Below are positions 1 to 63,804 of a stretch of DNA of 64,000 nucleotides, piece by piece (position 1 is the stretch's first letter; each line of letters opens with the position of its first letter). A program made the position numbers and the translations under genes. Origin of the DNA: a bacterium (GTDB lineage Bacteria > UBA4055); NCBI GenBank assembly GCA_029559475.1, contig JAKQBN010000013.1:25462-89461 (forward strand). The letters run 5' to 3'. The notes beneath the pieces were generated by a model. The model did not search any database, was not told the DNA's origin, and was given only the letters and a program-made list of their open reading frames with translations.

Positions 1-1328
1 TCGATCATTGCATCCGCTACTTTTTTGAAGCCGGCGATGTTGGATCCTTTTACATAGTTTACAAAACCTTTTTTGTCTTTTCCGTATTTAACGCCTGCGT
101 CATGAATATTTTTCATGATAGTTTTAAGCTTGGCATCAACTTCTTCTTTAGACCATGCTAATTTCATAGAGTTCTGGCTCATTTCAAGTCCTGAAGTAGC
201 TACTCCGCCGGCATTAGCTGCTTTACCGGGTGCGAAAGCGATCTGCTCGTGTATGAAATATTCGACCGCGTCTGCAGTACAGCCCATATTAGATGTTTCA
301 ACTACATATTTACATCCGTTTTTAACCAGCTTTTTCGCATCGTCGAGGTTCAGCTCGTTCTGAATTGCGCACGGGAAAGCCATATCGCATTTTACTTCCC
401 ATGGTTTTTTGCCTGCGAAGAATTTTGCGCCCGGGAATTTCTTAGCGTAAGGAGCAACAACGTCGTTATTCGATGCTCTTAACTCAAGCAGGTAATCGAA
501 TTTTGCCTGTGTGTTAACTCCATCCTTGTCGTAAATATACCCGTCAGGTCCGGAGATCGTAACTACCGTACCACCAAGTTCAGTGGCTTTTATTACAGTA
601 CCCCAGGTTACGTTGCCGAAACCTGAACATGCTATTGTTTTACCTTTCATTTTATCTTTTTTGTATTTGAGCATTTCGTCAGCATAGTATACCGATCCGA
701 ATCCTGTTGCTTCGGGTCTGATCAGCGATCCGCCCCAGTTAAGACCTTTACCTGTTAAAACGCCTGTGTTCTCATCTCTTAACCTTTTGTACTGGCCGTA
801 CATGAAACCGATTTCTCTTCCGCCGACACCAATGTCTCCTGCGGGAACGTCAGTTTCCGGTCCGATATATTTCTGAAGTTCTGTCATGAACGAACGGCAG
901 AATCTTAATACTTCATTGTCTGATTTGCCTTTAGGATTGAAATCGGAACCGCCTTTACCTCCGCCCATGGGAAGAGTTGTAAGACTGTTCTTGAACATCT
1001 GCTCGAATCCGAGGAATTTCAGTCCGCCGAGAGTTACGCTCGGATGGAATCTTAAACCGCCTTTATACGGGCCGATAGCGTTGTTGAACTGAACTCTGTA
1101 GCCTTTGTTGACCTGAACCTCGCCCTTATCGTCTTCCCACTCTACTTTGAACATGAACACTCTGTCCGGTTCTGTGATCCTGTCGAGTATTTTGGCTTTC
1201 AGATAACGCGGGTTTTCGTTGACCATGTCAATAACTGATTCGACAACCTCTTTTGCAGCCTGAATGAATTCGGGTTGAGCCGGGTTTTTTCTCTCTAGTT
1301 CCGCCATGAATTCTTTTAGTTTGTACAT
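1..1328 (-). CDS. gdhA: NADP-type glutamate dehydrogenase, 3' end cut by the window edge
   Basis: Absent from the ORF track because it runs off the left edge; I translated it from the minus strand. It starts MYKLKEFMAELERKNPAQPEF and stays open to base 1, about 442 residues, so only a few C-terminal residues are missing against the usual ~447-450. The hexameric GdhA signatures are present: KGGLRFHPSV, the substrate-binding lysine stretch PMGGGKGGSDFNPKG, GPETDVPAGDIGVGGREIG, the nucleotide-binding GFGNVTWGT, and ETSNMGCTADA. The enzyme interconverts 2-oxoglutarate plus ammonia and glutamate in the cytosol; with the fermentation genes nearby it may run in the catabolic direction (inference). 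The ATG at 1328 has AGG about 8 bases upstream and a strong promoter 70-100 bases upstream. It is monocistronic as far as can be seen. Confidence 0.96.
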   Translation of the reverse strand, partial: MYKLKEFMAELERKNPAQPEFIQAAKEVVESVIDMVNENPRYLKAKILDRITEPDRVFMFKVEWEDDKGEVQVNKGYRVQFNNAIGPYKGGLRFHPSVTLGGLKFLGFEQMFKNSLTTLPMGGGKGGSDFNPKGKSDNEVLRFCRSFMTELQKYIGPETDVPAGDIGVGGREIGFMYGQYKRLRDENTGVLTGKGLNWGGSLIRPEATGFGSVYYADEMLKYKKDKMKGKTIACSGFGNVTWGTVIKATELGGTVVTISGPDGYIYDKDGVNTQAKFDYLLELRASNNDVVAPYAKKFPGAKFFAGKKPWEVKCDMAFPCAIQNELNLDDAKKLVKNGCKYVVETSNMGCTADAVEYFIHEQIAFAPGKAANAGGVATSGLEMSQNSMKLAWSKEEVDAKLKTIMKNIHDAGVKYGKDKKGFVNYVKGSNIAGFKKVADAMI

Positions 1329-1399
1329 TTTTTCCTCGCATGTTTTATTTCTTTTATAGTATTGTTACTTTTTTTCACAATACCACGCATTTTGTCACA

Positions 1400-1428
1400 A
1401 ATATATATATAGTCTATATATCGGTCAA
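1400..1428 (-). promoter_or_regulatory. Sigma-70-type promoter of gdhA
   Basis: On the minus strand TTGACC, a 17-base spacer and TATATT lie 72-100 bases upstream of the gdhA ATG. The boxes sit downstream of the tRNA-Leu terminator, so gdhA appears to be transcribed independently of the tRNA. Confidence 0.7.
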
Positions 1429-1463
1429 GAGAAATTTTAACAATCTTTTTTATATAAAATGAA

Positions 1464-1486
1464 AAGGAGCGCACAAAGCGCTCCTT
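1464..1486 (-). terminator. Rho-independent terminator after tRNA-Leu
   Basis: A perfect 9-bp stem (AAGGAGCGC / GCGCTCCTT) with a 5-base loop begins 4 bases past the end of the tRNA. On the minus strand it is followed by a T-rich stretch (TTTCATTTTATA). Confidence 0.85.
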
Positions 1487-1489
1487 GAA

Positions 1490-1571
1490 TGCGGATAGAG
1501 GGATTTGAACCCCCACACCGTAAGGCACCAGATCCTAAGTCTGGCGTGTCTGCCAGTTCCACCATACCCGC
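1490..1571 (-). tRNA. tRNA-Leu (anticodon TAG)
   Basis: The minus strand folds into a class II tRNA. The acceptor 5' strand GCGGGTA pairs with TATCCGC. The anticodon stem-loop is CCAGA-CTTAGGA-TCTGG, giving anticodon TAG. A long variable arm (TGCCTTACGGTGT) and a T-loop GGTTCAAATCC are present. The discriminator base is A and the CCA tail is not encoded (TTC follows). It has its own promoter and terminator, so it is a single-gene unit reading CTA leucine codons and probably other CTN codons. Confidence 0.96.
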
Positions 1572-1582
1572 AAAACAGCGCA

Positions 1583-1611
1583 AATATAGTTATTCACGTT
1601 TTCATTGTCAA
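1583..1611 (-). promoter_or_regulatory. Promoter of tRNA-Leu
   Basis: On the minus strand a perfect TTGACA, a 17-base spacer and TATATT lie 12 bases before the mature tRNA 5' end. This is the closest match to the sigma-70 consensus in the window. Confidence 0.85.
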
Positions 1612-1642
1612 GCAATTTTTTGACAGAAATATTAAATTGCAT

Positions 1643-1670
1643 TTGCTGTTTTTATAGTTTAAATTATACT
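1643..1670 (+). promoter_or_regulatory. Possible promoter of the carboxyltransferase operon
   Basis: TTGCTG, a 16-base spacer and TATACT lie about 40 bases before the first ATG of the operon. The -35 box is weak. A TTGACA at about 1619 is an alternative -35 but lacks a good -10 at the right spacing. Confidence 0.4.
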
Positions 1671-1710
1671 GCCGTTAACCGGTATTGTTTAAATTGAGAC
1701 GGAGGAATTA

Positions 1711-3249
1711 ATGCTTGAAAAAGTAAAGCTTCTAGTTGCGAAAATGAGACATCTTGAAAAGGGCGGCGGAGAAGACAAGATAATCAAAAGGAAAGAAAAA
1801 GGTCTTATGACCGCAAGGGAGAGAATTGAATATCTTCTTGATAAAAATACTTTTAATGAAATTGACCTTTTTGTTGAACATCAGGCCAGGGATTTCGGGC
1901 TGGATAAACAAAAACTCGCAGGAGACGGCGTAGTTACCGGATTCGGCAAGATTGACGGACGTCCCGTCTGCATATTCGCTCAGGATTTTACTGTAGCCGG
2001 CGGTTCGCTTGGAAAAATGCATGCCGCTAAAATTACCAAAGTAATGGATATAGCTTCGAATATGGGTATGCCTATAATCGGAATTAACGATTCAGGAGGT
2101 GCGAGGATCCAGGAAGGCGTTGACTCTCTTGCAGGCTACGGAGAAATATTTTATAGAAATACAATAAACAGCGGCAAGATACCGCAGATATCAGTTATAA
2201 TGGGTCCCTGCGCAGGCGGAGCGGTATACTCTCCTGCCATAACGGATTTCGTTTTCATGGTCGATAAACTTTCTCAGATGTTCATTACAGGACCGAAAGT
2301 GATCGAATCCGTGTTAAATGAAAAGATAGATCCCGAAAGCCTTGGAGGTGCAAGGGTACATAACGAAATTACAGGGAACGCGCACTTTTTCGGAACTTCT
2401 GAAAAACAGACCCTGGAACAGATAAAAGACCTCCTCAGCTATCTTCCTTCATCTTGGGATAAGCCTCTTCCTGAAACCAGGCCGAGACCGCCCAAAAGCA
2501 AAAAAAGCATTCAAAAGATACTTCCTAAAGAAGTTAAGTTCTCGTACGATATGAAGGACATTATTGAACTTCTGGTAGATGATTCGCAGTTCCTTGAAGT
2601 TCAGCAGCTTTTCGCACCGAATATTACAGTAGGGTTCGCGCGCATGGACGGAAAGCCGGTGGGTATTGTGGCCAACAATCCTAAATATCTTGCCGGAGTT
2701 CTTGATGTTGATTCCAGCGATAAAGCAGCGAGATTCGTCAGGTTCTGCGATTCTTTCGGAATTCCGATCATTACCCTTGTCGATCTTCCCGGTTACCTTC
2801 CGGGCATAGATCAGGAGCATTACGGAGTCATCAGACACGGCGCAAAACTTCTTTTCGCTTATTCAGAGGCTACTGTTCCTACCGTTACTATTATTGTAAG
2901 AAAAGCTTACGGCGGTGGATATATCGCAATGGCCTCAAAACATCTGAGGACAGATTTTGTCTACGCATGGCCGACCGCAGAGATAGCCGTAATGGGAGCC
3001 GAGGGTGCCTGCAATATAATCTTCGCAAAAGAGATAGCTGAAGCAAAAAATCCGGATGAGATGAAAAAAGCTAAAGTTGAGGAATATAAGGAAAAATATT
3101 CAAATCCGTACAATGCGGCCTCAAAAGCTTACGTCGATGCCGTAATAACTCCAGATGAAACAAGAGAAAGGATCATCGCATCTCTTGAGCTTGCTAAACA
3201 CAAGGAAAAACTGAAAAAGCTTCACAAGCACGATTCTATTCCGCTTTGA
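1711..3249 (+). CDS. Acyl-CoA (propionyl-/methylmalonyl-CoA) carboxyltransferase subunit
   Basis: A 512-aa protein of the PccB/MmdA family, which moves carboxyl groups between biotin and an acyl-CoA. The N-terminal crotonase-like half has SGGARIQEGVDSLAGYGEIF and the oxyanion region MGPCAGGAVYSPAITDFVFM; the C-terminal half has GYLPGIDQEHYGVIRHGAKL and YGGGYIAMASKHL. Length is normal for a free beta subunit. The ATG at 1711 follows GGAGG. A biotin carrier gene is 25 bases downstream, but neither a biotin carboxylase nor a sodium-pumping membrane beta subunit is in the window. It could therefore belong to a propionyl-CoA carboxylase, a methylmalonyl-CoA decarboxylase or a transcarboxylase; sequence alone does not decide. 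Cytosolic. Confidence 0.92.
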   Translation: MLEKVKLLVAKMRHLEKGGGEDKIIKRKEKGLMTARERIEYLLDKNTFNEIDLFVEHQARDFGLDKQKLAGDGVVTGFGKIDGRPVCIFAQDFTVAGGSLGKMHAAKITKVMDIASNMGMPIIGINDSGGARIQEGVDSLAGYGEIFYRNTINSGKIPQISVIMGPCAGGAVYSPAITDFVFMVDKLSQMFITGPKVIESVLNEKIDPESLGGARVHNEITGNAHFFGTSEKQTLEQIKDLLSYLPSSWDKPLPETRPRPPKSKKSIQKILPKEVKFSYDMKDIIELLVDDSQFLEVQQLFAPNITVGFARMDGKPVGIVANNPKYLAGVLDVDSSDKAARFVRFCDSFGIPIITLVDLPGYLPGIDQEHYGVIRHGAKLLFAYSEATVPTVTIIVRKAYGGGYIAMASKHLRTDFVYAWPTAEIAVMGAEGACNIIFAKEIAEAKNPDEMKKAKVEEYKEKYSNPYNAASKAYVDAVITPDETRERIIASLELAKHKEKLKKLHKHDSIPL

Positions 3250-3289
3250 TCTTTTTCCCATATCAATTAATTAAATGATGAAGGCTGAT

Positions 3290-3727
3290 ATGTCGAACAA
3301 AGATGATAAAGATAATATTGACGATAAAAATAATCCGGCTGCAGAGACTTCCGCTGAAAAAGATGACGGAAAAGATGAAATTCTTGAAGAAGAGCTAATC
3401 TATACTGAGAACGATATTGTGACTCTGGACGGGGAGGAATATCACACGAATTTTACGAACAAATATCTGACCGCAAAAAATTATGTTCCAAGGCTGAAAG
3501 ATGTTGAAATGAGGGCATTTCTCCCGGGTCAGATAATCAAAGTTTACATCAAGAAAAAGAAAAAAGTTAAAGCCTTTGAAAAACTTATATCGTTCGAGGC
3601 AATGAAAATGATAAACGAAATTACTTTGAACGACGATGTAAAGATCGATGAAGTGTTCGTAAAAAAAGGCGACACTGTTGAAAAGAATCAGCTTCTGTTC
3701 AAATATAAAGTGATACCGAAAAAGTAA
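3290..3727 (+). CDS. Biotin carboxyl carrier protein
   Basis: About 145 aa. A highly charged Asp/Glu/Lys N-terminal stretch (residues 1-45) precedes a C-terminal biotinyl/lipoyl domain with the biotin attachment motif EAMKMINEI. The lysine of AMKM is the expected biotinylation site. The track starts at 3275, but AAGG at 3281 is well spaced for the ATG at 3290 (MSNKDDKDN), and nothing resembling a ribosome-binding site precedes 3275. It should carry carboxybiotin for the carboxyltransferase immediately upstream. It is not the FabE-type AccB: the charged N-terminus and genetic partner match the Mmd/Pcc carrier type. Confidence 0.88.
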   Translation: MSNKDDKDNIDDKNNPAAETSAEKDDGKDEILEEELIYTENDIVTLDGEEYHTNFTNKYLTAKNYVPRLKDVEMRAFLPGQIIKVYIKKKKKVKAFEKLISFEAMKMINEITLNDDVKIDEVFVKKGDTVEKNQLLFKYKVIPKK

Positions 3728-3748
3728 TAATTTAATAAACGTACTGTC

Positions 3749-5788
3749 ATGGAATTAATGTCGCCTGCGGGCAACAGTGAATCTTTTTATGCCGCCGTTA
3801 ATGGCGGTGCTGAAGCCGTTTATCTTGGGTTGAACCTTTTTAACGCGCGTAAACCGGCAAGAAATTTTTCATTCGAAGAAATTTCCGGAATAATTTCATT
3901 TGCGCATGCTAAAAATGTCAAAGTCTATATTACTTTAAATACCGACCTAAAATCGTCCGAGCTTGAAAATGCTTCCAAAATTCTATCCTTTCTGAATGAA
4001 ATTAAAGCTGATGCAATTATCGTAAAAGATATTGCTCTTATTTATCTGATAGACAAATATTTCTCTCCTTTCGAATTTCATTTAAGCACGCAGTTCGGAA
4101 TTTCGAACACTGCCGGTATGTTCATGGCGGAAAAGCTTGGAGCGTCAAGGGTGGTTCTCGCCCGTGAACTGAATCTTGATGAAATCAAAGCTCTGAGTGA
4201 GCCTTTTTATCCGAAAACGGAAGTTTTTGTTCAGGGTTCGATGTGCTTTTCATTTTCAGGAAAATGCCTGATGTCGAGCTGGTTCGGGGGGAAATCCGCG
4301 AACAGGGGCAGCTGCCAGGCGCCTTGCAGATTTAGGTTTGAAAAAGAACTCAGCGGAGATTTCAAACCCTATTTTTCAATGAAGGATCTTAATCTTTCTA
4401 ATGATCTGACAGATCTTGAAAAAGCCGGTGTAGCAGCTCTCAAGATTGAAGGACGGCTTAAAAGCGCCGAATGGGTGGGTGAAATAACAAAATATTATAG
4501 AAATCTGCTCGACAATAAAGTTTCTGACGGTTCAGATCCTTCGCGTTTTTCCGGACGGGAGCAGGGAAGCGGATTTTACGGCGGGCTTGAAAACCTTATT
4601 ACATCGAAAAATTCAGGCACTGTTAAAATGGAGATCAGTTCTAAACCTCAGGACCGCCGCGAAAGGCACAACGGTTACGATCTCCGGATAACCGCAGATT
4701 CTGAAATATACATTAATATCCTTACTGATCTCGGGGATGCGGAGTACAGGACCAAAGTTAAGAAACTGGTTAATGAAAAAAGAGGCATAAACCTTTCTGA
4801 GATAGAAACCCGGCTCAGAGACGTTTCTTTCGGTAATCTTTATTTGAACAGAATAAGCCTGAACAACGATATTTTGATAACAAAATCCCAGCTCAATAAT
4901 ATCGTGTCCGATCTTGGAGCTATAATTGCCCCGCTGAGCAGAAAAGAGATCAAATTCTTAAAGAACATCAAGCTGCCTTTCAAACTTGAATACGAGCTGG
5001 CTAATCCTGAATGTAACCCGAAAAATTCCATAGAAGTATGTTTCGGAAACGCAAATATACTCAAGATATTCGCGGATGATATTGATAAAATATCTAATGA
5101 GATCAAGGATTCAGGTATAAAGAAAGTTATAGTTTCTCATGCGCATTTTTCGGACATCGCAAAGATAAAAGAGCTTTCAAACAGGGTCAGGGTCGAAATA
5201 TCCCTCTTCCCCATTCTTTTTGAGAACGATCTCGAAGACTGCAGAAAGATCATAACGGAACTTGAACATACTAATAATATTTCTTACGAGGCGAACGATA
5301 TAGGCCATTTAAGGCTGCTTAAAAATACATCTAAGAAGATCGACTGCGGCCCGGGTCTGTCACCCTACAATTTTATTGCTGTAAAACAGCTTGAAAAGCT
5401 CGGTCTCGATTCCACCCACATTCCGCTTGAAGCCGATATTGAAACGATCGACGGATTAAAAAATTCTTCGCTGCCTTTAAGGATGACTATCTTTTCGAAG
5501 ATCCCGCTGTTCTACACAAGAGCCGCATCTGAAAACTTCAATGAAGGCACATCATTCACTGAACGGGAAAATTATAGATTTTCAGTTCATAAATTTAACG
5601 ACATAAGCATATTCAGCTCAGATGACTATTTTACTATACAAGATATCGACCTTTCATTTTTGAAAGTTCACGAGATCATAATCGATCTCTCCGGTGAAAC
5701 CGACATTCTCAACAAATTTCAGGCACTTAAAAGGGATCCGTCAAAATTCCCCGGTCTGAATTTCAATCTGAAGAGAAGGCTGTTCTGA
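3749..5788 (+). CDS. U32 family protein (prephenate-dependent RNA hydroxylase type)
   Basis: A 679-aa protein starting MELMSPAGNSESFYAAVNGGAEAVY, the U32 N-terminal barrel. The family signature is clear around residues 150-190 (EVFVQGSMCFSFSGKCLMSS, then SCQAPCR) and includes the cysteines thought to bind a cluster. Family members include TrhP/TrhO-pathway tRNA-U34 hydroxylases and RlhA, the 23S rRNA C2501 hydroxylase; older annotations say 'collagenase-like peptidase'. The long C-terminal extension is typical of the RlhA-like longer group. It starts 22 bases after the biotin carrier gene and overlaps the next gene by one base (TGATG), so the two are translationally coupled. Which RNA it modifies cannot be told. 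Confidence 0.85.
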   Translation: MELMSPAGNSESFYAAVNGGAEAVYLGLNLFNARKPARNFSFEEISGIISFAHAKNVKVYITLNTDLKSSELENASKILSFLNEIKADAIIVKDIALIYLIDKYFSPFEFHLSTQFGISNTAGMFMAEKLGASRVVLARELNLDEIKALSEPFYPKTEVFVQGSMCFSFSGKCLMSSWFGGKSANRGSCQAPCRFRFEKELSGDFKPYFSMKDLNLSNDLTDLEKAGVAALKIEGRLKSAEWVGEITKYYRNLLDNKVSDGSDPSRFSGREQGSGFYGGLENLITSKNSGTVKMEISSKPQDRRERHNGYDLRITADSEIYINILTDLGDAEYRTKVKKLVNEKRGINLSEIETRLRDVSFGNLYLNRISLNNDILITKSQLNNIVSDLGAIIAPLSRKEIKFLKNIKLPFKLEYELANPECNPKNSIEVCFGNANILKIFADDIDKISNEIKDSGIKKVIVSHAHFSDIAKIKELSNRVRVEISLFPILFENDLEDCRKIITELEHTNNISYEANDIGHLRLLKNTSKKIDCGPGLSPYNFIAVKQLEKLGLDSTHIPLEADIETIDGLKNSSLPLRMTIFSKIPLFYTRAASENFNEGTSFTERENYRFSVHKFNDISIFSSDDYFTIQDIDLSFLKVHEIIIDLSGETDILNKFQALKRDPSKFPGLNFNLKRRLF

Positions 5789-55719: not shown

Positions 55720-57588
55720 TTGCAGGAACGGGAAGCAGAAAAAAACAAAAATAAAATCAGTAATCCTGCTGAATTTAAAAGACTTCAGACTTTTTCGGTT
55801 GTAATAAACATTTTATCAAGATCTGATATAGAAGGCAGGAACAAATATGTGTATAAAATTACTGTTATAGATAACCTTAATCAGGGCAGATTTATTGGTT
55901 ATAGCTTTGAGAAGAATAAAACAAGCATCGGGATGTATGTTGATTATGTTCTGTCTCAGCTTAAAGACAAGAATCTATTAAGCAAGGATTTTAACATAAG
56001 CAGCAGCATGGGATTTTTTGATATGCGAGATACCGGCTATCAGATTGAGAAGAATCTGCATAAGAAGAAAATTCCTGTAAAATATCAGCCTCTGTCTCAT
56101 AAAGATATTATTAAGAGCATATATAAAGAACTGGTTACCGGCAGTAATGAATTTTCAATTTCAGGTGATCTCGGATCAGGCACTCCGATTTTGCCTCCGG
56201 TTTTTATTGATTCTTTTATTAAAGATATTGACAAGATCGCGAAATTCTCTGATTTCTGGCAAAATTATTCGTATAACGAGCATGACAGAAAACTTCTTAT
56301 CGAAGCATTGAATGAAACTGCAGAAGAAGCTGATAATATTCAAAATGATTTTGATTTTGAAAAAGCATTGAATCTATACCAAAAACTGCATTTGGCGTCT
56401 ATTGAAATTCCGGGCGCGGCAGGACTTACGATAAAATTTATTTTAAAACAGGCAAAAGTTTACTTCCATCTTGAACAATACGAAAAAAGTAAAGATCTTT
56501 TACAATCGTTGATCAAGATGTCAGAAGGCAAAAAAGCTGTTTCGGAGGCAGGCGAAGCTTATTATTATCTCGGAATTATTTCTTCCTACTCGAATGATAA
56601 TAAAAGTGCGGAGAATTATTTTTCTAAAAGCATAAAATTATTCGAAAAGCTAAAAATTCGCGAGAAACATTATATTTACTGGTACTCTATAATAAGAAGA
56701 TACATTTCGATAAACAATTTAAAGAAAGCTCTGATAACTTCGAACAAATGCCTGAGAACAGCCTATAAAAATAATGATACCGGAGAAATGCCCGAGATCT
56801 ACAGCCTGAAAAGCGAAATATATATAAGACAGGAAAAATGTTCCTATGCGCTAGAAAATTTAAATCTGCAGCTTGATTACGCAAGACAGGTAAAAGATAT
56901 TATTTCCGAAGCAAGAGGTATTACTCAGATCTTTTCAATTTCAGCGTATTTATCAGTAATCCCTCAGGAAAAACTCGATGAATATCTTGCCAGGATCAAA
57001 AAATTATCTATAAAAATAAAGAAAAAATCTTATTATTACGATGCGCTCATAGCTATGGGAATCAATTTGAAAAAAAACAAGAACTTCAATGAAGCTGAGA
57101 AATATTTCAATAAAGCCGTTAAAGTTTACTCTGATCAAACAACTGACGCATCATCCCATGTTGTTAACATGATATATCTTGCAAAAATAAAATTGTACTC
57201 TAATAAATACTTGAGCGCTGTAAGGGTATTGAATAAAATGCTTAAGATCTGTGATAGCAAATGCATAGGTTATTATCCTGCTTACATAGAAAACTGTCTC
57301 GGAAGGATCTATTATGAAAGAAAACTGTATCTCAAATCCAATATACATTTAAGAAAAGCTTTGAAATATATTAAAAGAGATAAGAACAGCGATAATTTAC
57401 TAATCGCCAATACATACAAATTTCTGGGATATAACAATCTTGCGCTGGGGTATAAAAATACAGCTTATGATAATCTGAATTTTTCAATAAAAATTTATGA
57501 AAAACTCCTGAGAAAAAAATATGATCAGGAAATAGAAGAAACAACAAAGAAGATTAAAGATATTCTAACAAACCGTGTAAATTCCTAG
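55720..57588 (+). CDS. TPR protein with degenerate integrase-like N-terminal domain
   Basis: 622 aa; the start is TTG with only a weak GGTGA site, so the N-terminus is uncertain. Residues ~10-150 follow the order of an rve/IS481-type transposase core: FKRLQTFSVVINILSRSDI, NKYVYKITVIDNLNQGRFIG, YVDYVLSQLK, ISSSMGFF, KKKIPVKYQPLSHKDIIKSI. The three catalytic positions are lost: 'QTD' reads QTF, 'DNG' reads SMG, and the final Glu is replaced by Ile/Lys. Residues ~185-610 are about ten TPR units (AVSEAGEAYYYLGIISSYSN; NKNFNEAEKYFNKAVKVYSD; ANTYKFLGYNNLALGY). It was probably built from a mobile element and now serves in binding. A small secreted peptide gene lies 169 bases downstream. No signal peptide. 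Confidence 0.65.
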   Translation: MQEREAEKNKNKISNPAEFKRLQTFSVVINILSRSDIEGRNKYVYKITVIDNLNQGRFIGYSFEKNKTSIGMYVDYVLSQLKDKNLLSKDFNISSSMGFFDMRDTGYQIEKNLHKKKIPVKYQPLSHKDIIKSIYKELVTGSNEFSISGDLGSGTPILPPVFIDSFIKDIDKIAKFSDFWQNYSYNEHDRKLLIEALNETAEEADNIQNDFDFEKALNLYQKLHLASIEIPGAAGLTIKFILKQAKVYFHLEQYEKSKDLLQSLIKMSEGKKAVSEAGEAYYYLGIISSYSNDNKSAENYFSKSIKLFEKLKIREKHYIYWYSIIRRYISINNLKKALITSNKCLRTAYKNNDTGEMPEIYSLKSEIYIRQEKCSYALENLNLQLDYARQVKDIISEARGITQIFSISAYLSVIPQEKLDEYLARIKKLSIKIKKKSYYYDALIAMGINLKKNKNFNEAEKYFNKAVKVYSDQTTDASSHVVNMIYLAKIKLYSNKYLSAVRVLNKMLKICDSKCIGYYPAYIENCLGRIYYERKLYLKSNIHLRKALKYIKRDKNSDNLLIANTYKFLGYNNLALGYKNTAYDNLNFSIKIYEKLLRKKYDQEIEETTKKIKDILTNRVNS

Positions 57589-57714
57589 AACCATTTTTTT
57601 TATTCTATATCATATTAAATAAATATTAAATACATAATTTTTATTCTGTTTTTCATACAGCGACGAACATCATAAAAACCGCCTAAAACAGCGGTCTTAT
57701 TGTTGCTTTTTTCC

Positions 57715-57757: not shown

Positions 57758-57937
57758 ATGAAAAAGTTAAAAAAATTATTGTTTGCCGCAGCTTTGGCTG
57801 CAACACTGTCGTATGGAACCGAAGTACTCGCTGACGAAATTTATCCTGATTGGCTTTGGACAGGCGCAGGCTGGGTTTACATTGGAGTATTAGATGGAGA
57901 TGATCCTGATCCGTTACCACCGCCGATCAAAAAATAA
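57758..57937 (+). CDS. Small secreted peptide, 59 aa (not in the ORF track)
   Basis: Just under the track's length cut. The sequence starts MKKLKKLLFAAALAATLSYG and has a good signal peptide ending VLA, with the likely cleavage before DEIYPDW. The predicted mature peptide is about 34 residues: aromatic in the first half (DWLWTGAGWVYIG) and acidic/proline-rich at the end (DGDDPDPLPPPIKK). AGGAGG lies 6 bases before the ATG. Its TAA overlaps the next gene's ATG (TAATG). I know no family. A signalling peptide, a secreted toxin or a RiPP-like precursor are all conceivable; it is the first gene of a four-gene coupled run. Confidence 0.75.
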   Translation: MKKLKKLLFAAALAATLSYGTEVLADEIYPDWLWTGAGWVYIGVLDGDDPDPLPPPIKK

Positions 57938-58281
57938 TGAAATGGGAGATTCATTCAGTAGTAAGGAGATGGGCAAAAGCGAACTGCACCGGGGCGATCT
58001 ACATTCTCTTCGGTCATCCTGCTGAGATCGAATTACTAAAAGATAAAGAAAAGTTTATCCTGTCAGAATTCGATCTTTGCGGTAATCTCTGCTCAGTTAT
58101 AATTGAAGCCTGTGAAATTTCAACGATAGTTAATTTCGGGAAGGCAAATGAAAAAAGATTGGCGGTAATGTATCTGAATAAAAGAAAAGAAGCAGTGAAA
58201 TCGGTAATAATTAAGTGGCATGACCACAACATTGCACTGCAGACGCGATCTTTTCGCATTATGGAACAACGGAATAAATGA
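57937..58281 (+). CDS. Hypothetical 114-aa protein of the peptide operon
   Basis: Starts MKWEIHSVVRRWAKANCTGA. Not recognised. It looks like a small alpha/beta protein (AIYILFGHPAEIELLKDKEK; LAVMYLNKRKEAVKSVIIKW) with two Cys in DLCGNLCS and a basic C-terminus. No signal peptide or membrane helix. It has no ribosome-binding site of its own and starts on the stop of the 59-aa peptide, so its synthesis depends on translation of that peptide. An overlapping minus-strand frame (58014-58403) is a shadow. It may be a partner or processing factor of the peptide, from position only. Confidence 0.6.
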   Translation: MKWEIHSVVRRWAKANCTGAIYILFGHPAEIELLKDKEKFILSEFDLCGNLCSVIIEACEISTIVNFGKANEKRLAVMYLNKRKEAVKSVIIKWHDHNIALQTRSFRIMEQRNK

Positions 58282-58445
58282 TGAATGGAAAGAATAGAAT
58301 AACAGGAACAAAAGAACCTACCGAGGGAACACCGGGTATCTCCCCTGCAGTAAAGAAAACGGTGTTCCTTCACCATTGTAATGAACATTGCTCTGGTGTG
58401 CAAATATTAAACAAGTACAAAATAACTGACCAGAGGAGTAAATGA
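58278..58445 (+). CDS. Small Cys/His peptide, 55 aa (not in the ORF track)
   Basis: The sequence starts MMNGKNRITGTKEPTEGTPG and contains the motif FLHHCNEHCSGVQI; with no signal peptide it should stay in the cytosol unless otherwise exported. HHC...HC could hold a metal or a disulfide. Both junctions are 4-base ATGA overlaps with the identical local sequence AAATGATGAA: one with the 114-aa gene, one with the sialidase-like gene. The coupled frame and overlap on both sides are the main evidence that it is real. A 9-bp inverted repeat (GGAACACCG 58326-58334 / CGGTGTTCC 58360-58368) lies inside the coding sequence. Confidence 0.55.
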   Translation: MMNGKNRITGTKEPTEGTPGISPAVKKTVFLHHCNEHCSGVQILNKYKITDQRSK

Positions 58446-59893
58446 TGAAACATATAATAGCCACAATATTATTAATCACAACTCTTCTTACAGCCCAGTT
58501 AGGCAACTGGAGCCCACCTGTGCAGCTGTCAATCGACGGTGTTCATCCATACAATATGATCGGTATACCTGCAATAACGGTTGACAACAACGGAACTATT
58601 CATGCTTTCTGGGTAAAAAGCATTGAAGAAGATGGCGGTGCTTTGCCTTGGGAATGGTATTCGCAGATCGAATACCGAAGATCAGCTGACGGCGGTAAAA
58701 CATGGGATGCAACTGAGAACCTGACACCAGATTATTTTGAACATAGAATTAATTACATGAAAGCTGTATGTGATTCAAAGAACAATGTACATCTTGTTTA
58801 TATGAGGGGCAGCGAAGGTTACGAAATTTTATATAAAAAGTTCGACGGGACTACATGGTCAGCACCGGAATTAATCGGATACGGTTCGTCATATTTAAGG
58901 ATGAACATTGACAGCGTTGACAGAATATATGCCACTTGGATGATAGGAAGAGAAGCATATTTTGCATATTACGATAACGGCGTTTGGTCTGATTACAAGC
59001 AAATTGGATCGGGAGAATACGGATTGGATGATCTTAAATTTGATCAGAATAACTTACTTTATGCAGTAGGTTCATGTTGGACAGATTTGACTCCATATTT
59101 GTTTATTTATGATAAGATGGTAGAAAATTGGATAAAGATCGAAGAGATGCCTAATGACACATTGGAATTTGGTGCTGCCAATGTTGTATCAAGAGATAAT
59201 GATGAGCTATTTATTAATATAAGTTATAGAACATATGCAAATAGTAAGGATTTTCATATGACTATGGAAATGAATACGGGAGAGTATTCATTTCCATATG
59301 AATACGGAGATAAGAATAATCCTGAAAGGGAAATGTATATGGATAAATATAATTATATACATCTTTTTGAGAAGCATTACTATGATTCTGATTATGTTAC
59401 TATGGGATTAATACACAATATTGGGAAGAATGAAATTTGGGAAACAACTGCAATTGACTCATCAAGTTATCATACATATTCGGAACCAAATGTAGCATTT
59501 GATAAGGTCAATAATAAGTTTTTTCTCCTTTACCAAAAATATGAAATAGATAATATGATTATGTACATAAATTTTCGTTCAAAGCAGAATACTACAGGAA
59601 TAGAAGATAATGATAGTCATTCAGTTGTAGACTTTAGATTAAATCAGAACTATCCAAATCCCTTTAACAATCAGACAAATATTTCATATGGATTATCTCA
59701 AACTTGTGAGGTTGAGCTATCAGTTTTTAATCCTAAAGGTCAAATCGTAGCTGTGCTTGTAAACTCAAAACAGAGTAAAGGTAACCATTCGATTCAATTC
59801 AATGCGGATAACTTGAACAGTGGAGTTTACTATTACCAATTAAAGACCGATGGAATTTTAAGGTCACTAAAGCGAATGGTTTATCTAAAATAA
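58442..59893 (+). CDS. T9SS-exported sialidase-like (BNR/Asp-box) protein
   Basis: 483 aa. Signal peptide MMKHIIATILLITTLLTAQLG. The body resembles a six-bladed sialidase-like propeller with an Asp box SADGGKTWDATENLT and repeated 'W..p..i..' units (TTWSAPELIGYGSSYLRMNI; YDNGVWSDYKQIGSGEYG). No clear catalytic Arg triad can be assigned, so enzymatic activity is uncertain. The T9SS module is LNQNYPNPFNNQTNISYGL ... LNSGVYYYQLKT ... KRMVYLK. It is the last gene of the coupled peptide run (ATGA overlap), with AGAGGAG before the twin ATGs. It is more AT-rich in its 3' two thirds than its neighbours. Confidence 0.82.
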   Translation: MMKHIIATILLITTLLTAQLGNWSPPVQLSIDGVHPYNMIGIPAITVDNNGTIHAFWVKSIEEDGGALPWEWYSQIEYRRSADGGKTWDATENLTPDYFEHRINYMKAVCDSKNNVHLVYMRGSEGYEILYKKFDGTTWSAPELIGYGSSYLRMNIDSVDRIYATWMIGREAYFAYYDNGVWSDYKQIGSGEYGLDDLKFDQNNLLYAVGSCWTDLTPYLFIYDKMVENWIKIEEMPNDTLEFGAANVVSRDNDELFINISYRTYANSKDFHMTMEMNTGEYSFPYEYGDKNNPEREMYMDKYNYIHLFEKHYYDSDYVTMGLIHNIGKNEIWETTAIDSSSYHTYSEPNVAFDKVNNKFFLLYQKYEIDNMIMYINFRSKQNTTGIEDNDSHSVVDFRLNQNYPNPFNNQTNISYGLSQTCEVELSVFNPKGQIVAVLVNSKQSKGNHSIQFNADNLNSGVYYYQLKTDGILRSLKRMVYLK

Positions 59894-59898
59894 AAAAT

Positions 59899-59988
59899 GG
59901 AGGTGCATATAAGGATACTATCGAGTAATACCGTGAAGTTTTGCCTGCAAGCCTGTTTCACGGATTAATGGATTCTGCCTGCACCTCC
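59899..59988 (+). promoter_or_regulatory. Large nested hairpin before the C13-like gene
   Basis: A perfect 9-bp outer stem GGAGGTGCA (59899-59907) / TGCACCTCC (59980-59988) encloses a 7-bp inner stem CCGTGAA (59931-59937) / TTCACGG (59957-59963). There is no U-run, so it is not a typical terminator. It could be a structured leader RNA or a mobile palindromic repeat. The loop contains TTTGCCTGC, also present in the leader of the 59-aa peptide. Confidence 0.45.
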
Positions 59989-60051
59989 CTATTAAATATA
60001 TGGAATATCAGGCGGACAGCACAACAGAAAAGTAAAAGTGAGGAAAAAAAA

Positions 60052-63000
60052 ATGTTGAAAAAAACTGTTTTGATGCTGATGTTAATATCAGCTGTCTGCA
60101 TAACACTGAACGCAGCCGAGAAATATGCGATCCTGATCGCTGGTGATTACACAGCCGCAAATGTGCCGGCAGATAAAAAGTGGAATGACGGACTCGGGAA
60201 TAATACCGAGTTCTGGAACGATCTTTATTTACAGTGGGAAATGCTGTACCAGAAAGGCTATAAAAAGGAAAATATTAAGGTTCTCTTTGCTCATGGAATT
60301 GATTTGTGGAATGTTGATGGCTTCCAATATATCGATCCTCGGTACCGCGCTTACAATGCTACAGGTAACATAGAAGATAGAATCGTTAATTATCCGGTTA
60401 CTACTACAGGATTAAATAGTGCGATTTCGGAAATATCCAGCACAAACGACGATTTTTTGTATGTCTGGGTGATGAGCCACGGTGGCGGTTCAACGCAGTC
60501 TAGTATAGGGTTCATAGGCACTGGAACACAACCGTCATTTTACGAAATGACTCCATCAGAATTTGCAGGAAAAATAAACGCAATCCCTGCATTTAAGAAA
60601 GAGATAGTGCTTTCATTAAATTATGCGCAGGGATTTAAGAATGTATTCACAGGTTCTAATGTTAGAGTTGAACTGTCCTCGACAAATACAAAAGCTCACC
60701 GTGCAGATGATAAAACAAAAATAGATACTTATTACCCATATCTGGAGAACGAATTGATTAACGGTAATATTTACTATCACGGGGAATTTAATTTTCATAA
60801 ATACTGCTCTTTAATGGGTCAGACTCAATATGGCTCGTCAATTTATCCGTCAGACGATACTTCGGGTCCATATCCTAATCCATTTAATATAGATATAGCT
60901 TCAACCGATGCTAATAATGACGGACAGTATAATTTTACTGAAAGTTACAATTGGATAGCTACACATCAATCCGATTTACTTAACAGTACATATACTGACT
61001 TTAAAGATAACGGTGAAGTCACGCCTTACTACACTTTTCCGATGGGAGATTATTCATCTTTAGATTACCCTACGCTTGTTTACAATTCTTTTGGATCTGC
61101 TATGGAGTATTTTGCATACCAGTATCCTACGAAAAAAGGTACTGTCGGGATAGCCGAAGATTTGAATATTGCTAATAATTTTTTTGATGTAAATCTGGGT
61201 TTGTATCCGAACAGCATAGCTACTATTTTAGACGATCACAAAATTGATGTTAATGAAGGTACATACAAAGCGGGAATCGTATTATCAAAAAATACTGTAC
61301 TGAAAGGTCAAAATAATAATCAGATCAGCCTATCCGGAGGTAGATTATCTTTGGATAATTCAATCGTAAAAGATATAAGAATAGATAATTACGCCGGATC
61401 CGTTTTTGTTGATAATTCATCGGAAATCAACAATGTTAAAACAACTCTCTTGAGCGGTAATATTGATTTTGAATATCCTACCGGAGTTAAATTATTACCG
61501 CAGGTGCTAAAACTTACAAATAATTCTGAATTAATGATAGAGCAAGGCAAGATACAGGGGAACTATAACACAGATAAACCTGATACAGTAAGCGTTACTG
61601 ACGGCAGCAGGTTGTCTATTGGCTATGAAGCAATATTTAACAGGATAATTCTTAAAATTGAACAATGGGGCATATATAATTATTCTAATAACGCAGTCTT
61701 TAACAACTCAGAGGTAAATGTAGCAAATTCAGGTCAGATCGTTTTCCCTTCTAACGGTACCTATACGCCAGCTGCTCCAATCTATGCATCGGCTGGCGGT
61801 CAATTATTAGTGGATGACAATGCTACACTAAACCTGAGTTCCGGTACTGTTGTAAACCTTCTTCCGGGCTCGCGTGTAACATTATCTGAAACCGCGATGC
61901 TGAATTCTGGAGGTTTTACTTTCCCTTCATCAACAGCTTTGCAGGTGGCAGATAAATCGAATATAAGCGGCAATCTCAGTTTCTCGGCAGGTTCTTCCTT
62001 CAAAACAGCCTGGCAGTCTGAAGTAAATCTAAAATCAGGCTCGATTGTAAAAATGAATCAGGCGAATTTATATGTTGATTACGGATCAACACTTGTAATC
62101 GAATTCGGAGCAAATTTAACTTTGTACGGTCCTATGAGAGTGATTATGTGCCCGGGATCAAAAATAATCAACCGCGGTATACTTTCAATCTCACCCGATG
62201 TTATATTTACGACAAATATTGATCCGACTAATCCTAATAAGTCACTTGATCCTTGGGACGGTGTTGTAAACGAGCCGGGGAGCTCATTTACAATTTCCGG
62301 TGCAGAATTCGAAAATGTGCAGACGGCAATAAACGGCGTTGGTTCCACTGTAAACATTAACAGATGTAAGTTTACTGACTGCACGAACGGAATAAATTTA
62401 TCAGCCTGCAGCAAGATTACAATAGCAAACAATATTTTTACAGGAAACGATAACGGTATAGCAGTTACTTTAATCCAATCAGATGGAAATGTAACTCACA
62501 ATACGATTACCGGATTTTACAAAGGAATTAACGTAATGTCTTGTTCGCCTACTCTTGTTCAGAATACTATAAGCGATTGCTATCTGAACGGGCTTTATGT
62601 GGCAGGAAACAACACCTATATGTCAATGGTAAACCCGATACAGATAGGCGGCACAATTAAAAGCGGAGATGAACTGGGAATTGATAATTCTGAGCTAAAT
62701 AATACGCTTCATAACAACGGGATCGACTATGTGCCTCCGCCGTTAATGTTCTCGAAAGCGTCTCAGATATATATGGTCTCCAACAGCAACATATATTTAG
62801 CAAAAGGATGGAACAACATATACAGCGATGCAAATCAGGTTCCCTGCATAAGAACAATAGGGCTTTTACCTGAAGGCGAACCGGTAAGAATGCAGCTTAT
62901 CTACGCACCGGAGAATTTCTGGGGTTACGGAACTGTAAATAATTCGTTATTCGCTCTCTCACTGCCTTATTACATTGACTATTCTTATAACCGCAGTTCT

Positions 63001-63804
63001 CCTTATGGAACTAACCCGGTTTACGCAAATGTTTCAGGAAATGAGAACGCTCAGAAATTATTGGGTAAGGCCTTCGGCTGTGAGCTTGACGGGAAGTATG
63101 ACAAAGCTATAAAGGAATACGAGAAAATAATCGATAAATATCCTGAAAGTACAGAGGCTATGGTAGCTTATGCAAAATTACCAGAAAATTATCAGATGTC
63201 TAAACTAAGTTTTGATCCTCTGCTTGCTGTATATGACAACAAGCTTGCGAATGAGAACTCGAACAAAAAATTCTTCAAAGAACTTAAAGTATCTTCACAT
63301 ATCAAAGCTAAGAATTATGATTCAGCGATTGCATTATCTGAGGAAATGAAGCTTGAAGCTGATACGGAAGAAGAACTGATCCTTTGCGACATTGATATCG
63401 CGATCGCGAATATGCTTAAAAACTCTAACAATAAATCAGGTAGTAAATTCGATCAGTCATCATTAAGCGAACTGCAGGATAAACTCAACGGAAGCAGAAG
63501 CAAAACTAATCCCTCGGATATAACTGAAGCTTCGTTACCTTTAGAATCGAAACTCTACCAGAACTACCCTAATCCGTTCAATCCTGTTACGCAGATCAAG
63601 TTTGATCTTGCTAAAACCACAGATGTTCAACTGAGCGTTTACAATGTAAGCGGCCAGATCGTGGCTGAACTCGCTGACGGAATCATGAATGCCGGAAGCC
63701 ATTCTGTTGAATTCGACGGCAGCAAATTAAATTCAGGTGTTTATTATTATACACTTGAAGCAAACGGTCAGAAATTAACAAGCAAGATGGTGCTTACGAA
63801 GTAA
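60052..63804 (+). CDS. Giant T9SS protein: inactive C13-like peptidase domain, beta-helix, TPR
   Basis: About 1250 aa from MLKKTVLMLMLISAVCITLNA (signal peptide); the track's 59941 start adds 37 residues read through the upstream hairpin, and GAGG precedes 60052. Residues ~20-330 follow the legumain/gingipain-like C13 fold: YAILIAGDYTAANV, FLYVWVMSHGGG with the catalytic His, and an EF-like ANNDGQYNFTESYN. The nucleophile block, normally 'EQCYSGGF', reads SLNYAQGF, so Cys is Asn. Residues ~350-960 are right-handed beta-helix rungs (CKFTDCTNGINLSACSKITI; NDNGIAVTLIQSDGNVTHNT). A short TPR-like part follows (YDKAIKEYEKIIDKYPES), then the T9SS module LYQNYPNPFNPVTQIKFDL. Probably a surface scaffold or binding protein. 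Confidence 0.82.
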   Translation: MLKKTVLMLMLISAVCITLNAAEKYAILIAGDYTAANVPADKKWNDGLGNNTEFWNDLYLQWEMLYQKGYKKENIKVLFAHGIDLWNVDGFQYIDPRYRAYNATGNIEDRIVNYPVTTTGLNSAISEISSTNDDFLYVWVMSHGGGSTQSSIGFIGTGTQPSFYEMTPSEFAGKINAIPAFKKEIVLSLNYAQGFKNVFTGSNVRVELSSTNTKAHRADDKTKIDTYYPYLENELINGNIYYHGEFNFHKYCSLMGQTQYGSSIYPSDDTSGPYPNPFNIDIASTDANNDGQYNFTESYNWIATHQSDLLNSTYTDFKDNGEVTPYYTFPMGDYSSLDYPTLVYNSFGSAMEYFAYQYPTKKGTVGIAEDLNIANNFFDVNLGLYPNSIATILDDHKIDVNEGTYKAGIVLSKNTVLKGQNNNQISLSGGRLSLDNSIVKDIRIDNYAGSVFVDNSSEINNVKTTLLSGNIDFEYPTGVKLLPQVLKLTNNSELMIEQGKIQGNYNTDKPDTVSVTDGSRLSIGYEAIFNRIILKIEQWGIYNYSNNAVFNNSEVNVANSGQIVFPSNGTYTPAAPIYASAGGQLLVDDNATLNLSSGTVVNLLPGSRVTLSETAMLNSGGFTFPSSTALQVADKSNISGNLSFSAGSSFKTAWQSEVNLKSGSIVKMNQANLYVDYGSTLVIEFGANLTLYGPMRVIMCPGSKIINRGILSISPDVIFTTNIDPTNPNKSLDPWDGVVNEPGSSFTISGAEFENVQTAINGVGSTVNINRCKFTDCTNGINLSACSKITIANNIFTGNDNGIAVTLIQSDGNVTHNTITGFYKGINVMSCSPTLVQNTISDCYLNGLYVAGNNTYMSMVNPIQIGGTIKSGDELGIDNSELNNTLHNNGIDYVPPPLMFSKASQIYMVSNSNIYLAKGWNNIYSDANQVPCIRTIGLLPEGEPVRMQLIYAPENFWGYGTVNNSLFALSLPYYIDYSYNRSSPYGTNPVYANVSGNENAQKLLGKAFGCELDGKYDKAIKEYEKIIDKYPESTEAMVAYAKLPENYQMSKLSFDPLLAVYDNKLANENSNKKFFKELKVSSHIKAKNYDSAIALSEEMKLEADTEEELILCDIDIAIANMLKNSNNKSGSKFDQSSLSELQDKLNGSRSKTNPSDITEASLPLESKLYQNYPNPFNPVTQIKFDLAKTTDVQLSVYNVSGQIVAELADGIMNAGSHSVEFDGSKLNSGVYYYTLEANGQKLTSKMVLTK

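Follow-up and report, generated by a model that had tools for sequence, protein, structure and literature searches.

A receptor-like gene, an exported peptide and a third gene form a cassette

The window, i.e., the whole stretch of 64,000 nucleotides analysed here, belongs to a 2.28-Mb draft assembly of Candidatus Delongbacteria. On its plus strand, downstream of a gene for an iron-containing alcohol dehydrogenase, lies an open reading frame (ORF) of 622 aa (55720..57588), which starts with TTG at 55720, stops at 57588 and has no internal stops; the window DNA is single-copy in its own genome. The encoded protein, here named the receptor (short form), joins a transposase-derived core to a TPR superhelix and has no HTH. 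The core, which is IS481-like (rve) and catalytically dead, spans aa 15-207 (55762..56340, plus strand) and is supported by hhalign, profile matches to intact transposases and fold. It includes IPP.F.D at about aa 158-164, a motif that belongs to the transposase C-terminus, and the transposase-derived portion ends at about aa 170. The TPR superhelix covers aa 187-621 (56278..57588, plus strand), based on Pfam TPR_12, the AF2 model and matches to LGN-like superhelices. The full-length AF2 model has ten helix pairs at aa 187-599 followed by one last, capping helix, so that the TPRs occupy the C-terminal two thirds of the protein (Pfam TPR_12, E 1.5e-17); Pfam TPR_MalT is a weak overlapping match.

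The receptor gene is followed, in this order, by a 59-aa ORF, a 114-aa ORF and the genes for two larger products, one of BNR type and one large protein. The 59-aa ORF (57758..57937, plus strand) is preceded by an AGGAGG ribosome site and encodes a putative exported peptide with a Sec-type signal peptide, a cleavage-like site VLA-DE, a W.W....W motif and a Pro-rich tail. Between the receptor and peptide genes we noted a terminator-like hairpin (57678..57695, plus strand), a consensus match only, and Rfam gave no convincing match in the vicinity of the peptide. The third cassette gene (114 aa, 57937..58281, plus strand) overlaps the peptide stop with its start and has no Pfam match. Beyond the cassette (58442-63804), the BNR-type protein and the 1287-aa protein each carry a T9SS sorting tail, and the start of the latter resembles by eye a caspase/legumain-type peptidase, with no Pfam peptidase match. 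In L108 and L111, too, the peptide is followed by a similar BNR-type/large-protein pair.

The core descends from an IS481-like transposase and has lost its catalytic triad

Searched alone as a single sequence against Pfam, NCBIfam and PDB sequences, the N-terminal approximately 190 aa matched nothing, and a scan of the genome contigs with the single window sequence found no relatives. Because databases did not reveal the resemblance, profiles were built. The core profile A2, made from 27 members, was aligned with a profile of intact transposases (A6) at an hhalign probability of 97.6 (E 2.9e-12, 164 columns), and a profile covering the core plus the HTH region reached 99.9 against the intact cousins (E 2.2e-31, 270 columns). 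Searched over 290 genomes, A2 also reached, beyond the phylum, DDE transposases with an intact triad (E 1.1e-21 and 1.5e-14). These intact transposases outside Delongbacteria carry the motifs ...IDIK..., ...QTDNGKEF... and ...SDVESFHNLIEEEFF..., with no TPR match in those scanned. Consistent with this, one family member (L056) is 27% identical over 248 aa to the intact transposase L164 by BLASTP (E 9e-27), and the PHROG transposase family phrog_8463 matches both L056 (E 6.6e-11) and the intact cousins. An hmmsearch of PDB with A2 matched nothing, and against a broad IS481/IS3 set A2 reached E 0.0055 with a probability of only 6.6; the nearer intact cousins (A6) settled the matter.

The hhalign alignment showed that the DDE triad is absent from the window protein: the first Asp is replaced by V28, the second by S96, and the segment with the Glu is missing. 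The register of the first strand is uncertain by two residues, which would place the first Asp on N30. The triad is intact in L164, L196, L199, L200 and L211, while none of the aligned family members has a recognisable one. The results confirm that the window core descends from an IS481-like (rve) transposase whose catalytic triad was lost. A first-pass annotation made from the window sequence had proposed this rve/IS481-like core fused to a TPR array, and both halves of the proposal stand, the core with clear support from profile-profile comparison; its statement that all three acidic catalytic positions had changed was right about the loss, whereas its placement of them at F, S/M and I/K did not hold. 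As a side observation, L164, L196, L199, L200 and L211 constitute an intact IS481-like group whose cores are missed or barely touched by the Pfam rve models; phrog_8463 does match L164 and L196.

The predicted structure points in the same direction, though weakly. In the AF2 model of the core (pLDDT 76.9), strands and helices follow each other as E-E-E-H-E, as expected of an RNase H-like fold, and DDE/rve proteins make up most of the model's top PDB matches, with IstA first (E 1.5e-3, probability 0.91-0.94). The best matches comprise IstA, retroviral integrases, MuA and a few unrelated entries, at E of about 1e-3 to 1e-2, and TM-scores versus DDE/rve structures are low, about 0.3. The modelled resemblance to IstA and retroviral integrases is therefore supportive, not decisive, for the rve assignment. 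The full-length model (pLDDT 84.1, the TPR part mostly above 90) has LGN, OGT and other long TPR superhelices as its nearest solved structures; LGN is among the good fits to the TPR part (TM by target up to 0.78), and the RRNPP receptors Rap, PlcR and NprR were absent from the top 50 PDB matches. LGN holds extended peptides in its groove. We set the full-length fold matches aside as functional evidence, as generic TPR superhelices dominate them.

A single domestication in Delongbacteria was followed by loss of the HTH domains

The A2 search of the 290 genomes detected members in 13/13 Delongbacteria genomes, all of them draft assemblies, and every relative with an organism name comes from a MAG of Candidatus Delongbacteria or UBP11. 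Long forms of the receptor keep both transposase HTH domains before the same core (HTH_28 in 17/17, HTH_32 in 16/17), and the window short form has neither. In a maximum-likelihood tree all 38 Delongbacteria rows fall in one clade (99/94), nested in intact transposases beside L196/L211. Every peptide-linked receptor lies inside one 25-row clade (100/99), and within it the HTH-less short forms, the window and five others, again make up one clade (100/100). Some terminal branches are long, mostly those of divergent members outside the 25-row clade. Complete receptors of the peptide-linked clade measure 583-744 aa, and receptor pairwise dN/dS is about 0.15-0.26 where dS is unsaturated.

The placement of the 38 proteins in a single clade among intact transposases indicates one domestication. 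In a single event, Delongbacteria captured an IS481-like transposase. Its DDE triad was lost, a TPR superhelix was added at the C-terminus, and paralogues of the gene multiplied; after the partnership of one large subclade with the peptide gene, both HTH domains disappeared from the lineage that contains the window protein. Domestication, proposed in the first-pass annotation, is thus borne out by the single clade, its presence in all 13 Delongbacteria genomes searched, the low dN/dS and the HTHs kept in the long forms. That reading was of one short-form protein only, and it missed the complete transposase layout of the long forms and the peptide cassette.

The residual reading of a decaying transposase pseudogene or a still-mobile element with neighbours by chance is strongly disfavoured: the core does derive from a transposase, but the ORFs are intact and form one clade in all 13 genomes with dN/dS well below 1, no aligned member has a recognisable triad, the window DNA is single-copy and the cassette is conserved.

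Separately, L003/L057 contain a long ORF with, by eye, a CHAT-type region at its end directly upstream of the receptor gene of the paralogue in the window's own genome (L057, a long form), and L215 has a long ORF with Pfam CHAT and TPR in the same position. A plasmid origin was unsupported; the plasmid matches are TPR regions, mostly cyanobacterial.

The partner peptide is conserved and linked to one receptor clade

The peptide ORFs of one large subclade encode 53-61 aa, with a signal peptide, W.W....W and a Pro-rich tail, and lie 28-216 bp downstream of the receptor gene (15 pairs). A peptide profile built from ten aligned members and searched over the 13 genomes retrieved 17 peptides at E <= 1.6e-10. 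As ten of these were the starting set, the independent evidence consists of the seven new ones, of which five, those with upstream sequence, are each preceded by a receptor gene and two lie where a contig begins. This search found no orphan peptide in the 13 genomes.

Within the 25-row clade a peptide accompanies 15 rows; for L044 it lies in L108, a locus on a different contig that probably continues L044. In L040 an assembly gap probably hides the peptide, and seven rows stop at contig ends. In the two remaining rows, L039 and L047, no peptide ORF was found and the third gene is kept. These two are possible orphan receptors. No peptide was found beside receptors outside the 25-row clade.

The W.W....W motif is present in 16/17 peptides and a ribosome site precedes nearly all of them. 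Signal-peptide-like N-termini were judged by inspection and alignment; the NCBIfam Phr_nterm match to the window peptide is below cut-off, covers the signal peptide only and occurs in 1/10 members. In the alignment of ten, the mature part is conserved besides the signal peptide, suggesting a function after export. Judged from its sequences, with a pairwise dN/dS of 0.10-0.25, the peptide is under purifying selection. Gibbs sampling upstream of the peptides yielded a motif, mostly 41-66 bp before the ATG, that scored better than shuffles; as it was unspecific across the window, we do not claim it as a binding site.

The third gene occurs in eight copies in the 13 genomes, each adjoining a receptor of the window's 9-row subclade, and nowhere else. 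At its place 3' of the peptide, L053, L055 and L058 carry 57-58-aa zinc-ribbon-like genes (PICS.C.KIR...SHSVCPEC); a DUF3606 gene is found 3' of the peptide in L051, and similar ORFs of 60-61 aa are present in L049 and L109. Near its cassette, L049 has a LanC-like gene (3414-4148) along with an HTH_18 domain, and L114 has LanC-like and Lant_dehydr_N genes (1-3331); both are candidate lanthipeptide loci that the regulator may control.

A putative peptide-responsive regulator

Taken together, these observations make a peptide-responsive regulator, RRNPP-like in operation yet outside RRNPP, the most likely reading, to which we give a probability of about 0.5; we infer ligand binding, regulation and signalling. 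The TPR superhelix would act as a cytoplasmic receptor for the neighbouring peptide, whether as precursor, mature peptide or fragment, and binding would change the conformation or the oligomeric state of the dead core. In the long forms this may alter HTH binding to promoters, probably including the peptide's own and those of adjacent operons, while the HTH-less window form may act via protein-protein contact, perhaps with the third-gene product or a long-form paralogue. Such a system would have evolved separately, from a transposase, and would work like RRNPP receptor-propeptide pairs.

The peptide and the third gene are still linked to receptors in the HTH-less clade, so the partnership is independent of promoter binding by that protein. 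The retention of the peptide beside HTH-less receptors is our best argument for a link at the protein level.

As regards uptake, the Opp binding protein (SBP_bac_5) was found only in G004 and G006, both peptide-less, and not in the other 11 of the 13 draft genomes, and OPT and SbmA importers were found in 0/13. A canonical loop of export and re-import is therefore unsupported for the peptide-bearing genomes; the peptide may enter by another importer, its precursor may be sensed intracellularly, or it may be an output and not the ligand. The loci of G004/G006 (L045, L046, L054, L056 and L217-L220) combine divergent receptors and Opp binding proteins with no peptides.

The last option, in which the peptide is a secreted bacteriocin-, RiPP- or surface-type product whose expression the neighbouring regulator controls under another signal, is rather unlikely, though the most probable of the rival readings. 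It would account for the LanC-like and Lant_dehydr_N genes near the cassettes of L049 and L114, for peptides that have their own ribosome sites and are spaced from the receptor gene, and for the failure to find a peptide importer (Opp in the peptide-bearing genomes, OPT and SbmA in all 13). However, the peptide stays linked to HTH-less receptors, which should not bind its promoter; moreover, maturation enzymes are absent near most cassettes, and the peptide is conserved instead of diversifying.

We regard as improbable that sensing occurs only inside the cell, with the TPR protein binding the unexported precursor to report export or envelope status and re-import never taking place. Sec-like signal peptides, receptors that are cytoplasmic by layout and the missing known importers are all consistent with this, but conservation extends to the mature part and not to the signal peptide alone, suggesting a post-export function.

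Less probable still is that the pair serves as a toxin-antitoxin or defence module, with the TPR protein holding in check a small hydrophobic peptide that is toxic. Several paralogous pairs per genome and the TPR-CHAT-type ORFs that flank some receptors could be read in this way, whereas receptors without a peptide persist, the PADLOC matches are generic TPR models that match none of the window proteins, and plasmid matches are confined to the TPR regions.

Returning to the peptide-responsive regulator, we tentatively extend it to an independent peptide-signalling system of a Gram-negative candidate phylum, with dead-transposase/TPR receptors in several pairs per genome, HTH-less receptors as protein-level modulators and a novel route of uptake or inside sensing; this broader picture is somewhat less than an even bet.

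Comparison with known systems

We found no literature on this dead-transposase/TPR family. Like IS481-like/phrog_8463 transposases, the family has two N-terminal HTHs (long forms), the RNase H-like core order and the C-terminal IPP..D; unlike them, it has lost the DDE triad, added a TPR superhelix and kept its cassette gene vertically, and the window form is HTH-less. The coupling of a DNA-binding domain to a TPR superhelix recalls MalT/AfsR-type regulators; in contrast to these, no ATPase domain was detected here and the DNA-binding part is different.

The RRNPP systems (Rap-Phr, PlcR-PapR, Rgg-Shp, AimR-AimP) share with the present family a cytoplasmic TPR protein, often with an HTH, beside a small exported peptide, and both include HTH-less and HTH-bearing receptors. 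The signature used to detect RRNPP is a TPR receptor directly adjoining an exported propeptide of 10-100 aa (PMC10075063). Here we found the receptor-propeptide adjacency (15 pairs) and secretion-tag-like N-termini, but neither the receptor length (250-500 aa in RRNPP, about 580-750 aa here), nor a fold closest to Rap/PlcR/NprR, nor an oligopeptide permease. The family differs further in its transposase-derived DNA-binding part, its host (Delongbacteria versus Firmicutes), its W-/Pro-rich mature peptide, its other fold neighbours and the Opp importer not found in peptide-bearing genomes.

Receptor-propeptide signalling has so far been described in Gram-positive Firmicutes and their mobile elements (PMC10075063). 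If our reading is true, Gram-negative bacteria evolved such signalling a second time, starting from a transposase, and both the rewiring of transposase DNA binding and the reading of peptides without a recognisable Opp become testable. The family would also clearly exemplify the conversion of a DDE transposase, in one traceable event, into a set of regulators with multiple paralogues, and its intact cousins allow comparison. In TldR and other exapted transposon proteins that act as transcription factors (PMC13418256), catalysis is likewise lost and gene regulation is the probable function. TldR comes from the RNA-guided nuclease TnpB, whereas the ancestor of the family here is a DDE transposase, to which a TPR sensor and a partner peptide were added.
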